Program-made: the position numbers and the translations under genes | The notes under the pieces: generated by a model | Seen by the model: only the letters and a program-made list of their open reading frames with translations | Told to the model about the DNA's origin: nothing | Database searches by the model: none | Part shown: positions 8,360 to 11,131 of the stretch, in pieces | Layout of the letters: each line of letters begins with the position of its first letter | Numbering within the stretch: the first letter of the stretch is position 1 | Assembly (NCBI RefSeq): GCF_016904885.1 | Contig: NZ_JADWYI010000001.1 | Span: 4,340,001 to 4,404,000 of the forward strand | DNA: 64,000 nucleotides | Direction: 5' to 3' | Source of the DNA: Archangium primigenium | GTDB lineage: Bacteria > Myxococcota > Myxococcia > Myxococcales > Myxococcaceae

Positions 8360-8829
8360 GCGCCGGGCAGCCTAGCCGGATCGGCCAGCGGGACGGGCCT
8401 CCTCATTTCCCGAGAACAGAGGATCGCGCCGCGAGGACGGGTCGCCCGAGGCGGGGGGGTGCTCACTGATGGACATCTCCAGGCGCCGTTGGGTCTGCAC
8501 CTGCACACTCTCCATCAGATGGCGCGACGCCGGCACTGGACAGGAAAGTGGGGGATGGACATTCGGACAGTCGTGGGAAAACGTCGGCCGCGCCTGGGTG
8601 CTGCCGGTGCTGGGTGCCGGAGCCTTTCTCCGGTACTGGAAGTGGGGGGGAGCGAAGAGCAGACACACAACGGTTCATGGTTGGATGCAGACGGGCCGAC
8701 CCAAACACCCGCGCGAACACAACGCGCACGGACTCCTGAGAAGTCGCCGGGTGTGGGCGTCGAGCCAGACGGTAGTCGATTGATTTCCAAAAAATAGGCA
8801 GTACGCCATGACGGCTGGGGGGCCCTCAC
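8360..8829. other. Gene-free region upstream of fruA
   Basis: This is 470 bp between the divergent RDD gene and fruA. Several short open frames exist on both strands but none has convincing codon use, ribosome site or homology, so I call no gene. An AT-rich stretch at about 8777-8801 (with TTGATT and AAAAAATAGG) lies 30-50 bp before the fruA start and is the best promoter candidate. I scanned the region for the MrpC consensus (TGTY, 8 bases, RACA) and found no full match. The length is unusual for this compact window and suggests long-range developmental control. Confidence 0.5.
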
Positions 8830-9519
8830 ATGGCAGCAAATCAAGTGGATGTGCGCGTTGGATTGTTGGAAGGACCGTGGGCGGCCTGGCAGGGCCTGGC
8901 CGATGGTCTCAAGGGTGAAGGCCTCAACGTCCTGTGGGTGACGCGCGATGTGCGCACGCTCCTGGACGGCATCGGCACGGATCCGCCGCAGGTGGCCATT
9001 CTCGACGTGGAGCCGTCGAGCGACGCGGGCATGGGGTGCTCGGGCATGGAGGGGCTCAACCTCCTGCGCGAGGCGCGCAAGCGCCGGCTGGAGGTGCGCA
9101 TGCTCGTGCTCTCCTCGGCCAACGCCCAGGACTTCATCTCGCAGTGCTTCGACGAGGGGGCGTCGGGTTATCTCTTCCGCCAGAGCCTCACGTCCAACGC
9201 GGTGAGCACCGCGGTCAATGCCCTGGTGCGCGGCGAGCGGCTCTTTCCGGTGCAGCTGTTGCGCAATGACTTCGAGCACCCACCGGTGCCGTCCGCCACG
9301 GCGAGCGTGTTGCTCACGCTCACCCAGCGCGAGCGCGAGGTGTTGGCGTACGTGGCGGGAGGCGCGGACAACCTGAAGATCGCCGCCCACCTGCAGATCG
9401 CCGAGCGCACCGTGAAGTCCCACGTGACCCAGCTCTACCGCAAGCTGGGCGCGGAGAACCGCACCCAGCTGGCGCTGCGCGCCTGCCACCTGGGTGTGCG
9501 GCCGCCGCCGGATCTGTAA
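8830..9519 (+). CDS. fruA: FruA-type developmental response regulator (NarL/LuxR class)
   Basis: The protein is 229 residues, the same length as Myxococcus xanthus FruA, and the candidate phospho-acceptor is Asp59 (VAILDVEP), the residue number mutated in FruA work. FruA is the transcription factor that, with MrpC, drives aggregation and sporulation after C-signalling. The receiver is atypical: the beta-1 acidic pair is reduced to a single Glu14 (GLLEGPW), and the usual beta-5 Lys is replaced (GYLFRQS). The C-terminal LuxR helix-turn-helix spans about 163-222 (LTQREREVLAYVAGG, AERTVKSHVTQLYRKLG). A strong terminator-like hairpin follows. Length, Asp59 and the degenerate receiver together make this call fairly secure. 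Confidence 0.86.
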   Translation: MAANQVDVRVGLLEGPWAAWQGLADGLKGEGLNVLWVTRDVRTLLDGIGTDPPQVAILDVEPSSDAGMGCSGMEGLNLLREARKRRLEVRMLVLSSANAQDFISQCFDEGASGYLFRQSLTSNAVSTAVNALVRGERLFPVQLLRNDFEHPPVPSATASVLLTLTQREREVLAYVAGGADNLKIAAHLQIAERTVKSHVTQLYRKLGAENRTQLALRACHLGVRPPPDL

Positions 9520-9578: not shown

Positions 9579-9663
9579 CCCCGTGGGACGTCAGAGCCCC
9601 CTGGCATAACCCGGGGTGAGACACCACTGTGTCGGCCCACGGGGCGCCAGGAGGAGGCGGGTG

Positions 9664-10422
9664 ATGAGCGGGGTGATGGGGCCGGGGTCGGAGGAGCGCG
9701 GCCTGACGGTCGGTGCGCGCCGGATTTGTATTGGCCGGGTGCCGGTGGATGCCGGGCGCCTGGAGGACACGCTGGGCCGCATCGCGCGGCTGGTGGACGC
9801 GCGGCAGGGCGGACGGGTGATGCTGCCCGACGTGGAGCACGTGGTCCGCGCCGAGCGGGACGTGGCCCTGCGCGAGGCGCTCGCCACCGCGGACCTGTGC
9901 CTGGCGGGAAGCCCCGCGCTGGTGCGGGCCGCGGAGCGACTGGGCTCGCCGCTGGCCGAGCCGCGCGCGGGCGCGGAGTGGTTGCCGCCGCTGGCCACCC
10001 TGGCGCGCGAGCGCGGGTGGCGCGTGGCGGTCGTGTCGGATCGTCCCCAGGTGGCCGAGCGCGCCGCGGGCGTGCTGCGCGACACCCATGGTCTGCTCGC
10101 GGTGGGCGTGACGGCGGCGCATCTGCCCCCCGAGGGCCGGGGCGCCGCGGTGGAGCGGGTGATCGAGCGCATCGCCCTGACGCGGCCGGATCTCGTCTGG
10201 GTGTGCCTGGCCACGCCCACCCAGGAGCTGTTCTGCCTGCAGGCCGCGCTGCGGTTGCCGGGCGCGGTGCTCGTGGGGGCCGGCGGCGCGCTGGAGGCGC
10301 TCGTGGAGGGCCTTCCGGGCAACCGTCGCCGCGCGCCGCTGTGGGCGCCCCTGCGGTGGTTGCGCCAGCGGTGGGCCTTCCTGCGTGTCCTGGCGAGCAC
10401 GACCCCCCTCCCCGCGCGCTGA
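9664..10422 (+). CDS. Degenerate WecG/TagA/CpsF-family glycosyltransferase-like protein
   Basis: The protein is 252 residues from the ATG at 9664, which follows an AGGAGG ribosome site. The fold signature is visible: PDVEHVVRAERD near residue 55, the region GWRVAVVSDRPQVAERAAGVL, PDLVWVCLATPTQELF (family consensus: PDLLLVGLGAPKQE), and GNRRRAPLWAPLRWLRQRW at the C-terminus (consensus: RAP.W....EW..R). WecG/TagA enzymes transfer N-acetylmannosamine-type sugars to lipid carriers. The usual Asp-Gly motif, whose Asp is proposed as catalytic, reads Ala81-Gly82, and the glycine-rich GAPKQE loop is altered. It may be inactive or have a changed reaction. It sits between fruA and a pseudo-receiver gene. 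Confidence 0.7.
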   Translation: MSGVMGPGSEERGLTVGARRICIGRVPVDAGRLEDTLGRIARLVDARQGGRVMLPDVEHVVRAERDVALREALATADLCLAGSPALVRAAERLGSPLAEPRAGAEWLPPLATLARERGWRVAVVSDRPQVAERAAGVLRDTHGLLAVGVTAAHLPPEGRGAAVERVIERIALTRPDLVWVCLATPTQELFCLQAALRLPGAVLVGAGGALEALVEGLPGNRRRAPLWAPLRWLRQRWAFLRVLASTTPLPAR

Positions 10423-10468
10423 GGTCATCGCCCGTCGGTGAACGCAGCGCCGTGACGCGCCCCGGCAC

Positions 10469-10486
10469 GTGTCTCGGGCGCGACAC
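10469..10486 (+). promoter_or_regulatory. MrpC-type palindrome (GTGTC, 8 bases, GACAC)
   Basis: The sequence is GTGTC at 10469-10473, eight bases, then GACAC at 10482-10486; the arms extend by one more pair (C...G). This is an exact match to the consensus reported for the Myxococcus developmental regulator MrpC. It lies about 145-160 bp before the start of the downstream pseudo-receiver gene, in non-coding DNA. With ten fixed bases, about 0.06 exact matches are expected by chance in 64 kb of equal base composition. Confidence 0.65.
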
Positions 10487-10547
10487 GGCCCCCCGCGGCG
10501 CCACGCGCGCACATTCTTTCCAGGCTGCACGGGCTGGTAGGGATATT

Positions 10548-10569
10548 CCGGGATGCTTAGTCATCCCGG
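10548..10569 (+). promoter_or_regulatory. Inverted repeat in the leader of the pseudo-receiver gene
   Basis: Perfect 8-bp arms CCGGGATG (10548-10555) and CATCCCGG (10562-10569) flank a 6-base centre, 62 bp before the predicted ATG. It could be an operator or an RNA hairpin in the 5' leader. No gene is present in the surrounding 208-bp gap. Confidence 0.45.
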
Positions 10570-10630
10570 GTCCGCTGGCCGAGGCCGTGCCGCCCAGCGG
10601 GAGATGGGTCTTCACGACGGGGGGGAGTAC

Positions 10631-11131
10631 ATGAGCGCCAACGCGGTATGGGCCCAGCAGCAGGCACAACAGCAATCGCCCGGGCAGGGGGGGCAGCGGG
10701 TGTTCTGGGGAGAGCCCCGCCGGCAACTCATGGTGTACCCGGGCCAGGTGCTGCTGCTCGAGAGCCTCAAGGCGCGCGGTCAGGCCGTGCGCGACATGCT
10801 CGTGCGCGAGCGCTTCGGGTGTGGGGTGGTGCAGGATGGCCGGGAGGTGGCGCCCTTGTTCGAGCGGCTGCTGCTCGGCCAGTACCGGATGCCGGAGCTC
10901 ATCATCTGCAACGCACGCATGCTCGACGACGCGGGCATGACGGCGCTGGTGCGGCTGAGCACGCGCCTGCCCCAGCTGCCCGTCATCATCTTCAGCGTCT
11001 TCAGCAATCCGCGGCTGCGCGCGCGCATGGCGCGGCTGCGGGGCGCGTGTGTGTTCGATCAGCACTTCGGCCTGGCGGACCTGCGCGATGCGTGTCTGGC
11101 CTTGAGCACCTTCTGCCGCAAGAGCCTGTAG
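10631..11131 (+). CDS. Pseudo-receiver domain protein
   Basis: This is a 166-residue protein from the ATG at 10631, preceded by GGGGGAG. After a Gln-rich N-terminal segment (about residues 8-22) comes a CheY-like fold (about 36-160). It has beta-1 LLLESL, beta-3 PELIICNARMLDDAGMTAL, beta-4 LPVIIFSVFSN, beta-5 ACVFDQHFG and a final helix. The phospho-acceptor Asp is replaced by Asn94, the beta-1 acidic pair is reduced to Glu44, and the beta-5 Lys is missing. Classical phosphorylation is therefore unlikely, and it has no output domain. It lies two genes from fruA and carries an upstream MrpC-type box, which suggests a developmental role. No named homologue is recognised. Confidence 0.7.
   Translation: MSANAVWAQQQAQQQSPGQGGQRVFWGEPRRQLMVYPGQVLLLESLKARGQAVRDMLVRERFGCGVVQDGREVAPLFERLLLGQYRMPELIICNARMLDDAGMTALVRLSTRLPQLPVIIFSVFSNPRLRARMARLRGACVFDQHFGLADLRDACLALSTFCRKSL

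Follow-up and report, generated by a model that had tools for sequence, protein, structure and literature searches.

We report an exact MrpC-type palindrome, GTGTC-TCGGGCGC-GACAC, in the promoter region of a pseudo-receiver gene of Archangium primigenium, within a stretch of 64,000 nucleotides (contig NZ_JADWYI010000001.1, positions 4,340,001 to 4,404,000, forward strand; hereafter, the window). On balance we favor the reading that it is an operator of MrpC, which would modulate a sigma-54-type promoter there as it does at mrpC. The gene appears to be new and branch-specific and the element is of a known kind, so that the pair makes a credible candidate MrpC target. Features of the locus are listed in Table 1.

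Table 1. Features of the fruA-pseudo-receiver region (window coordinates)
Feature	Position	Strand	Basis or remark
fruA promoter region without an MrpC-type site	8360..8829	+	Best match has 6/8 core letters; 1.5 bits, 71% of shuffles
fruA	8830..9519	+	GerE and receiver-like domains; divergent RDD gene upstream
WecG/TagA/CpsF-family glycosyltransferase gene, between fruA and the palindrome	9616..10422	+	PF03808, E 8e-22
MrpC-type palindrome GTGTC-TCGGGCGC-GACAC	10469..10486	.	Exact match and PWM scores
Decayed copy of the orthologues' enhancer-like element TGTGGCGGAACGCCACATGTGGCG	10500..10516	.	MAFFT alignment and local blocks
Promoter block GGGATGCTTAGTCATCCCGG common to Archangium-group orthologues	10550..10569	+	Alignment
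Candidate sigma-54 -24/-12 element TGGCCGAGGCCGTGCC	10576..10591	+	GG at -54 of the ATG; weak in the window
Pseudo-receiver gene, 166 aa	10631..11131	+	Receiver-like, Asn at the phospho-acceptor position

The full sequence of the palindrome is GTGTCTCGGGCGCGACAC, with an additional matching pair just outside it (10468-10487). It lies in noncoding DNA between the stop of the WecG/TagA-like gene and the ATG of the pseudo-receiver gene, its center 153.5 bp upstream of that ATG, which confirms the placement given by an earlier sequence-only reading of this DNA; where that reading says "two genes downstream of fruA," one gene (WecG/TagA-like) lies in between, and the palindrome stands before the second. 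It is the sole exact GTGTC-N8-GACAC in the window, and the earlier chance expectation of about 0.06 per 64 kb agrees with shuffles, which give 0.07 (7 of 100 shuffles with at least one). The whole 9.49-Mb genome contains five. In Myxococcus xanthus, the ChIP-seq motif of MrpC is TGTYN8RAC (PMC4320627). The palindrome fits this motif on both strands, and to that extent the match to a published consensus stands; the published motif is looser than the GTGTC-N8-GACAC first quoted, and the letters GTGTC were not found in the running text of PMC4320627, PMC10701913, or PMC8844925, though the stricter form may stand elsewhere. TGTYN8RAC matches the window six times (two of these being the palindrome read on either strand) versus 15.3 expected, which is no over-representation.

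Scored with a 29-site PWM (mrpC and fruA sites), the palindrome reached 18.1 bits, and with a 23-site PWM (mrpC sites alone) 17.5 bits; when 270 control stretches, each 300 bp long, were scanned for their best match, the 99th percentile was 10.2 bits. It differs in 1 of 18 letters from the mrpC-promoter site of a relative (locus L089). In M. xanthus, MrpC2 bound motif-matching sequences in 11 of 11 cases tested (PMC4320627), so binding of MrpC to the palindrome in vitro is likely; at dmxB, only one of four predicted, mismatch-carrying MrpC sites mattered for binding (PMC8844925), so a consensus-like sequence may also fail to bind.

Total motif count was tried as evidence and set aside as uninformative: about 10 exact palindromes per genome are expected (extrapolated from window shuffles), the five seen are no excess over that prediction, and the reversed-pattern control differs in dinucleotides. 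Across the comparison, exact palindromes numbered 397 in 729 Mb (72 genomes with MrpC; reversed-pattern control, 105) and 49 in 168.7 Mb (24 genomes without MrpC; reversed-pattern control, 31); they are denser with MrpC, yet also present in genomes without it. Because the count is uninformative, location tests with spacing controls were used instead.

The genome holds 56 TGTC-N8-GACA sites, 50 of which were located. Intergenic positions made up 32 of these 50 versus 16% of 1230 control positions (30 spaced loci; home-made gene caller), and 28 of 50 were both intergenic and 5'-proximal (within -400 to +100 of a called start) versus 11% of control positions. Since intergenic DNA is less G+C-rich (66% versus 72%), the half-sites at other spacings were taken as control. 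With the N11 spacing, which preserves codon phase, 5 of 35 sites (all N11 sites) were intergenic and 5'-proximal (Fisher P 8e-5 versus N8), and with N9 spacing 10 of 35 were (from 50 N9 sites; Fisher P 0.011 versus N8). Scaled to all sites, there are about 31 promoter-located N8 sites versus 5 (N11) and 14 (N9); about 54-84% of promoter-located N8 sites exceed background, and this concentration puts the odds that the palindrome is a true operator at roughly two in three. In a further set of 59 sites, of mixed spacing, 18 were intergenic and 10 of those were 5'-proximal as well, a result in the same direction as the N9 and N11 controls. All five exact palindromes of the genome are 5'-proximal, and four are intergenic. 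The share of sites outside genes varied with the gene caller: by the first it was 3 of 5 for exact palindromes and 5 of 15 for N8 sites, and by the second, which trims over-long starts and was applied to sites and controls alike, 4 of 5 and 32 of 50. Judged by eye from the open reading frames, the other exact palindromes precede an FHA-GAF-cyclase-like gene (L003), a histidine-kinase-like gene (L004), a divergent secreted-protein/thioredoxin-like pair (L005), and an amidohydrolase-like gene (L001). Three TGTC-N8-GACA sites (G000:C1 358563, 991271, and 4414123) are copies of one repeat, perhaps a mobile element.

A putative MrpC orthologue is encoded in the genome, downstream of a gene that is NtrC-type by eye. 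We take this protein to be MrpC from its genomic setting. It is 92-95% identical to the orthologues of Myxococcus-like genomes, and across the mrpC loci compared the recognition-helix region is unchanged but for one D/E position. TGTYN8RACA stands 248-267 bp upstream of mrpC in all 29 readable loci (30 fetched), that of the present genome among them. HTH_Crp_2 has eight matches in the genome, of which four are strong; the recognition-helix stretch, read from the open reading frames, is SRSF in MrpC and TRES, SRES, and SRQT in the three other strong CRP-like proteins, the corresponding stretch of Escherichia coli CRP being SRET. By these letters, two of the three others resemble CRP, and MrpC alone among the strong CRP-like proteins appears tied to TGTC-N8-GACA, via its own promoter.

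The product of the downstream gene matches Response_reg with an E value of 1.8e-5, weaker than the Pfam curated cut-off. A profile built from 11 members finds the NtrC receiver, whose Asp is aligned to Asn, and because Asn replaces the phospho-accepting Asp in 11 of 11 aligned members, we call it a pseudo-receiver. Orthologues (45-52% identical) are present in six genomes of one genus, G002-G007, where 5-18 kb separate the gene from the WecG gene upstream of it; we refer to these as the Archangium group (genus g3), a label that we infer, as we do "Myxococcus-like" and "Cystobacter-like." A ModC gene adjoins the pseudo-receiver gene in the window, G006, and G007, and the other four Archangium-group genomes showed no close ModC within the 0.8-2.5 kb available downstream. 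In three genomes of the same genus as the window, WecG and ModC are about 40 bp apart with no gene between them. The first 8-9 kb after fruA yielded neither WecG nor the pseudo-receiver gene in eight Myxococcus-like genomes, which contain, genome-wide, solely weaker receiver-like matches. As the gene was not found at that locus, M. xanthus probably has no syntenic gene at which MrpC ChIP-seq data could be looked up, a check that the sequence-only reading had proposed. The present genome has one close paralogue, at 6198762 (E 1.5e-23; 37-38% identical).

Upstream of the gene, a sigma-54-type -24/-12 element and an enhancer-like palindrome appear conserved, both of them decayed in the window. 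All six orthologues have GG-N10-GC (as GGCAC-N7-TGC), which resembles the sigma-54 -24/-12 consensus, with the GG at -50 to -55 of the ATG (shuffle fractions, 0-0.05), and a similar -24/-12-like element lies upstream of four of four paralogues (shuffle fractions, 0.01-0.09). The window copy, TGGCCGAGGCCGTGCC, keeps GG-N10-GC at -54 and is equalled by 33% of shuffles, so it is not significant alone. The enhancer-like element of the orthologues (TGTGGCGGAACGCCACATGTGGCG; TGTGGC-N5-GCCACA in most of them, poorest in G006) is about 100 bp upstream of the -24/-12-type element; in the window, the center of the MrpC-type palindrome precedes the candidate -24 GG by 99.5 bp. A single perfect match to the enhancer-like pattern GTGGCGGAANGCCNCATG occurs in the genome, in the paralogue promoter, which had itself guided the design of the pattern. 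The pseudo-receiver genes that are preceded by TGTGGCGGAACGCCACATGTGGCG and a sigma-54-like element are those at L036, L038-L042, and L052.

Conservation of the palindrome in orthologous promoters, another check put forward earlier, turned out mixed. The exact palindrome is absent upstream of all six Archangium-group orthologues and of the three same-genus paralogue genes. Absence from orthologous promoters is one of the two findings that the sequence-only reading had named as jointly refuting it. In four of the six orthologues (G006, G003, G002, and G005), a half-conserved match, the best by PWM within 300 bp, places its TGTC between -186 and -190 relative to the ATG, which is the homologous place: TGTC is 32-37 bp upstream of a conserved GCCAC in these four and 30 bp in the window, which is without 19-26 bp of the orthologues' GCCAC-to-ATG stretch. 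All four score low (3.7-6.3 bits; shuffle P 0.09-0.32 each), three of them come from closely related genomes, and only that of G006 fits TGTYN8RAC. In G004 and G007, a TGTC precedes GCCAC by 54 bp, and the strongest PWM match is elsewhere, at about -98 within the shared promoter block (9.5 bits; P 0.02). Before the paralogue in the present genome, TGTC-N8-GACA stands 268 bp from the ATG and a stronger match, of 13.8 bits, lies closer to it; the best score of this promoter was equalled in 1 of 300 shuffles. No significant MrpC-type match was present in the three paralogue promoters of the same genus (P 0.08-0.40). Two further exact palindromes were seen near pseudo-receiver-like genes of relatives, neither of them upstream: one just after the receiver-like match of L022 (L022 1936-1953) and the other some 7 kb beyond the G003 orthologue on its downstream side (G003:C1:5458818).

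The name fruA for the upstream gene is one that we assume, following the sequence-only reading; its orthologues are 90-95% identical in the same genus and the Archangium group. Nearness to fruA had been offered as support for an MrpC site, and here the earlier argument is weak. The fruA promoters (scanned over the fruA-RDD gap or, if that gap is long, over 1.5-1.8 kb) contained no significant MrpC-type site in 10 of 10 genomes scanned (the present one, three of the same genus, and six of the Archangium group; shuffle fractions, 0.25-0.99), those of G032 and G033 having one single-strand TGTYN8RAC match each; therefore, proximity to fruA is no argument for an MrpC-FruA circuit at this locus, and the pseudo-receiver gene itself was not found at the fruA locus of the eight Myxococcus-like and three same-genus genomes. 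Among the eight Myxococcus-like fruA promoters, four have clear sites (G018, G060, G062, and G069; fractions, 0-0.02), two have TGTYN8RACA with a low PWM score (G014 and G042), and two have neither a clear PWM site nor TGTYN8RACA (G037 and G041). The FruA consensus GGGYRN4-6YGGG does not occur in 10422-10640 (0.27 expected by chance); this is a weak test, since according to the text of the M. xanthus ChIP-seq study the consensus was likewise not found near MrpC peaks (PMC4320627). A leader before fruA, at about 8803-8833 (CGCCATGACGGCTGGGGGGCCCTCACATGGCA), is strongly similar in 19 of 19 aligned genomes, far above the rest of the promoter; in most of these genomes, the present one included, it contains a further ATG, which in the window lies 22 bases upstream of the fruA ATG in another frame.

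In the mechanism that we propose, MrpC, a CRP-family regulator of development, would bind the palindrome in the promoter region of the pseudo-receiver gene. This promoter would derive from one of the sigma-54 (-24/-12) type, served by an enhancer-binding protein from a site some 100 bp further upstream, and MrpC, sitting beside or over the enhancer site, would modulate access of the enhancer-binding protein, as at the mrpC promoter. In M. xanthus, MrpC represses the sigma-54 promoter of mrpC, competing with the enhancer-binding protein MrpB (PMC10701913). The data show the sequence itself, an MrpC orthologue, the promoter enrichment of the motif in this genome, and the conserved promoter anatomy of relatives; binding at the palindrome, the direction of the MrpC effect, the sigma-54 dependence of the window promoter, and any role in development are inferred.

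We consider it unlikely, if still a serious competitor, that the palindrome arose by chance and has no regulatory role, being background even among promoter-located sites. By the spacing controls, some 5-14 of the estimated 31 promoter-located N8 sites are background, the exact palindrome is kept in none of the six orthologues, and the number of exact palindromes is not above the shuffle prediction. Against chance stand a perfect 10-letter core scoring far above the 99th percentile of controls, a second MrpC-like promoter at the paralogue, and the half-conserved match at the homologous place in four of six orthologues. The claim of an MrpC site survives in part, carried by the MrpC orthologue, the promoter-enriched motif, the single difference from the L089 site, and the MrpC-like sites of the paralogue, and weakened by the lack of the exact palindrome in the orthologues.

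An operator of another CRP/FNR protein, or of a NifA-type sigma-54 enhancer-binding protein (whose site is TGT-N10-ACA), seems improbable. A NifA-type site would suit the spacing of nearly 100 bp to the -24/-12 promoter, the orthologues do carry a palindromic enhancer-like element at about that distance, and the genome offers the eight HTH_Crp_2 matches noted above; however, the enhancer-like element of the orthologues differs in letters and spacing, two of the three other strong CRP-like proteins resemble CRP in this helix, and only MrpC is linked to TGTC-N8-GACA. That the palindrome is an RNA hairpin or terminator of the fruA-WecG unit is very improbable, although its arms could pair (6 bp) and start 46 bp after the WecG stop codon: no terminator-like site was found in 10380-10660, and the predicted fold of 10420-10520 was no better than shuffles (z -0.92; 38 of 200 as good) and left the arms unpaired with each other, so this explanation was rejected.

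The preferred reading, an MrpC operator, has precedents in M. xanthus, where MrpC operators lie in the mrpC, fruA, dmxB, and pmxA promoters and ChIP-seq gave 1608 peaks (PMC4320627, PMC8844925). As in those operators, the dyad is TGTC-N8-GACA, intergenic, and upstream of a signaling gene in a genome with an MrpC orthologue (PMC4320627, PMC8844925), and the motif in this genome favors gene starts, as the M. xanthus MrpC peaks do (PMC4320627). Unlike them, it belongs to another myxobacterial branch, its gene was not found at the fruA locus of eight Myxococcus-like genomes, and the candidate is known from sequence. The arrangement, an MrpC-type site next to an enhancer-like element that precedes a -24/-12-type element by about 100 bp, is like that of the mrpC promoter, with its sigma-54 promoter, MrpB upstream activating sequences, and MrpC sites (PMC10701913); unlike there, the -24/-12 copy of the window is weak, and the orthologues' enhancer-like element is, by eye, distinct from the GAACGTTC-type repeats of the genome's own mrpC promoter. 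The protein is like atypical or pseudo-receivers of myxobacteria, such as that of FrzS (PMC1974792), in being receiver-like with the phospho-accepting Asp missing and unlike them in being stand-alone (166 aa), with a Pfam match under the curated cut-off.

The MrpC targets described in the texts of the cited papers are all from M. xanthus (PMC4320627, PMC8844925, PMC10701913), and the palindrome is a testable candidate MrpC target outside Myxococcus, whose standing among all instances of the motif in the same genome can be judged. The fruA promoters of this branch are without a significant MrpC-type site and the mrpC promoters have one, which questions the reach of the M. xanthus MrpC-to-FruA step in other fruiting myxobacteria. 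A broader, rather speculative reading, to which we give little credence, is that the Archangium/Cystobacter-like branch lost the MrpC input to fruA, that the pseudo-receiver pair with sigma-54-type promoters is now MrpC-controlled, and that the window operator was newly perfected at a place from which MrpC can exclude the enhancer-binding protein. If true, the MrpC circuit of the branch would have been rewired: fruA would no longer receive the direct MrpC input that is central in M. xanthus, and pseudo-receiver genes would have been gained as targets.
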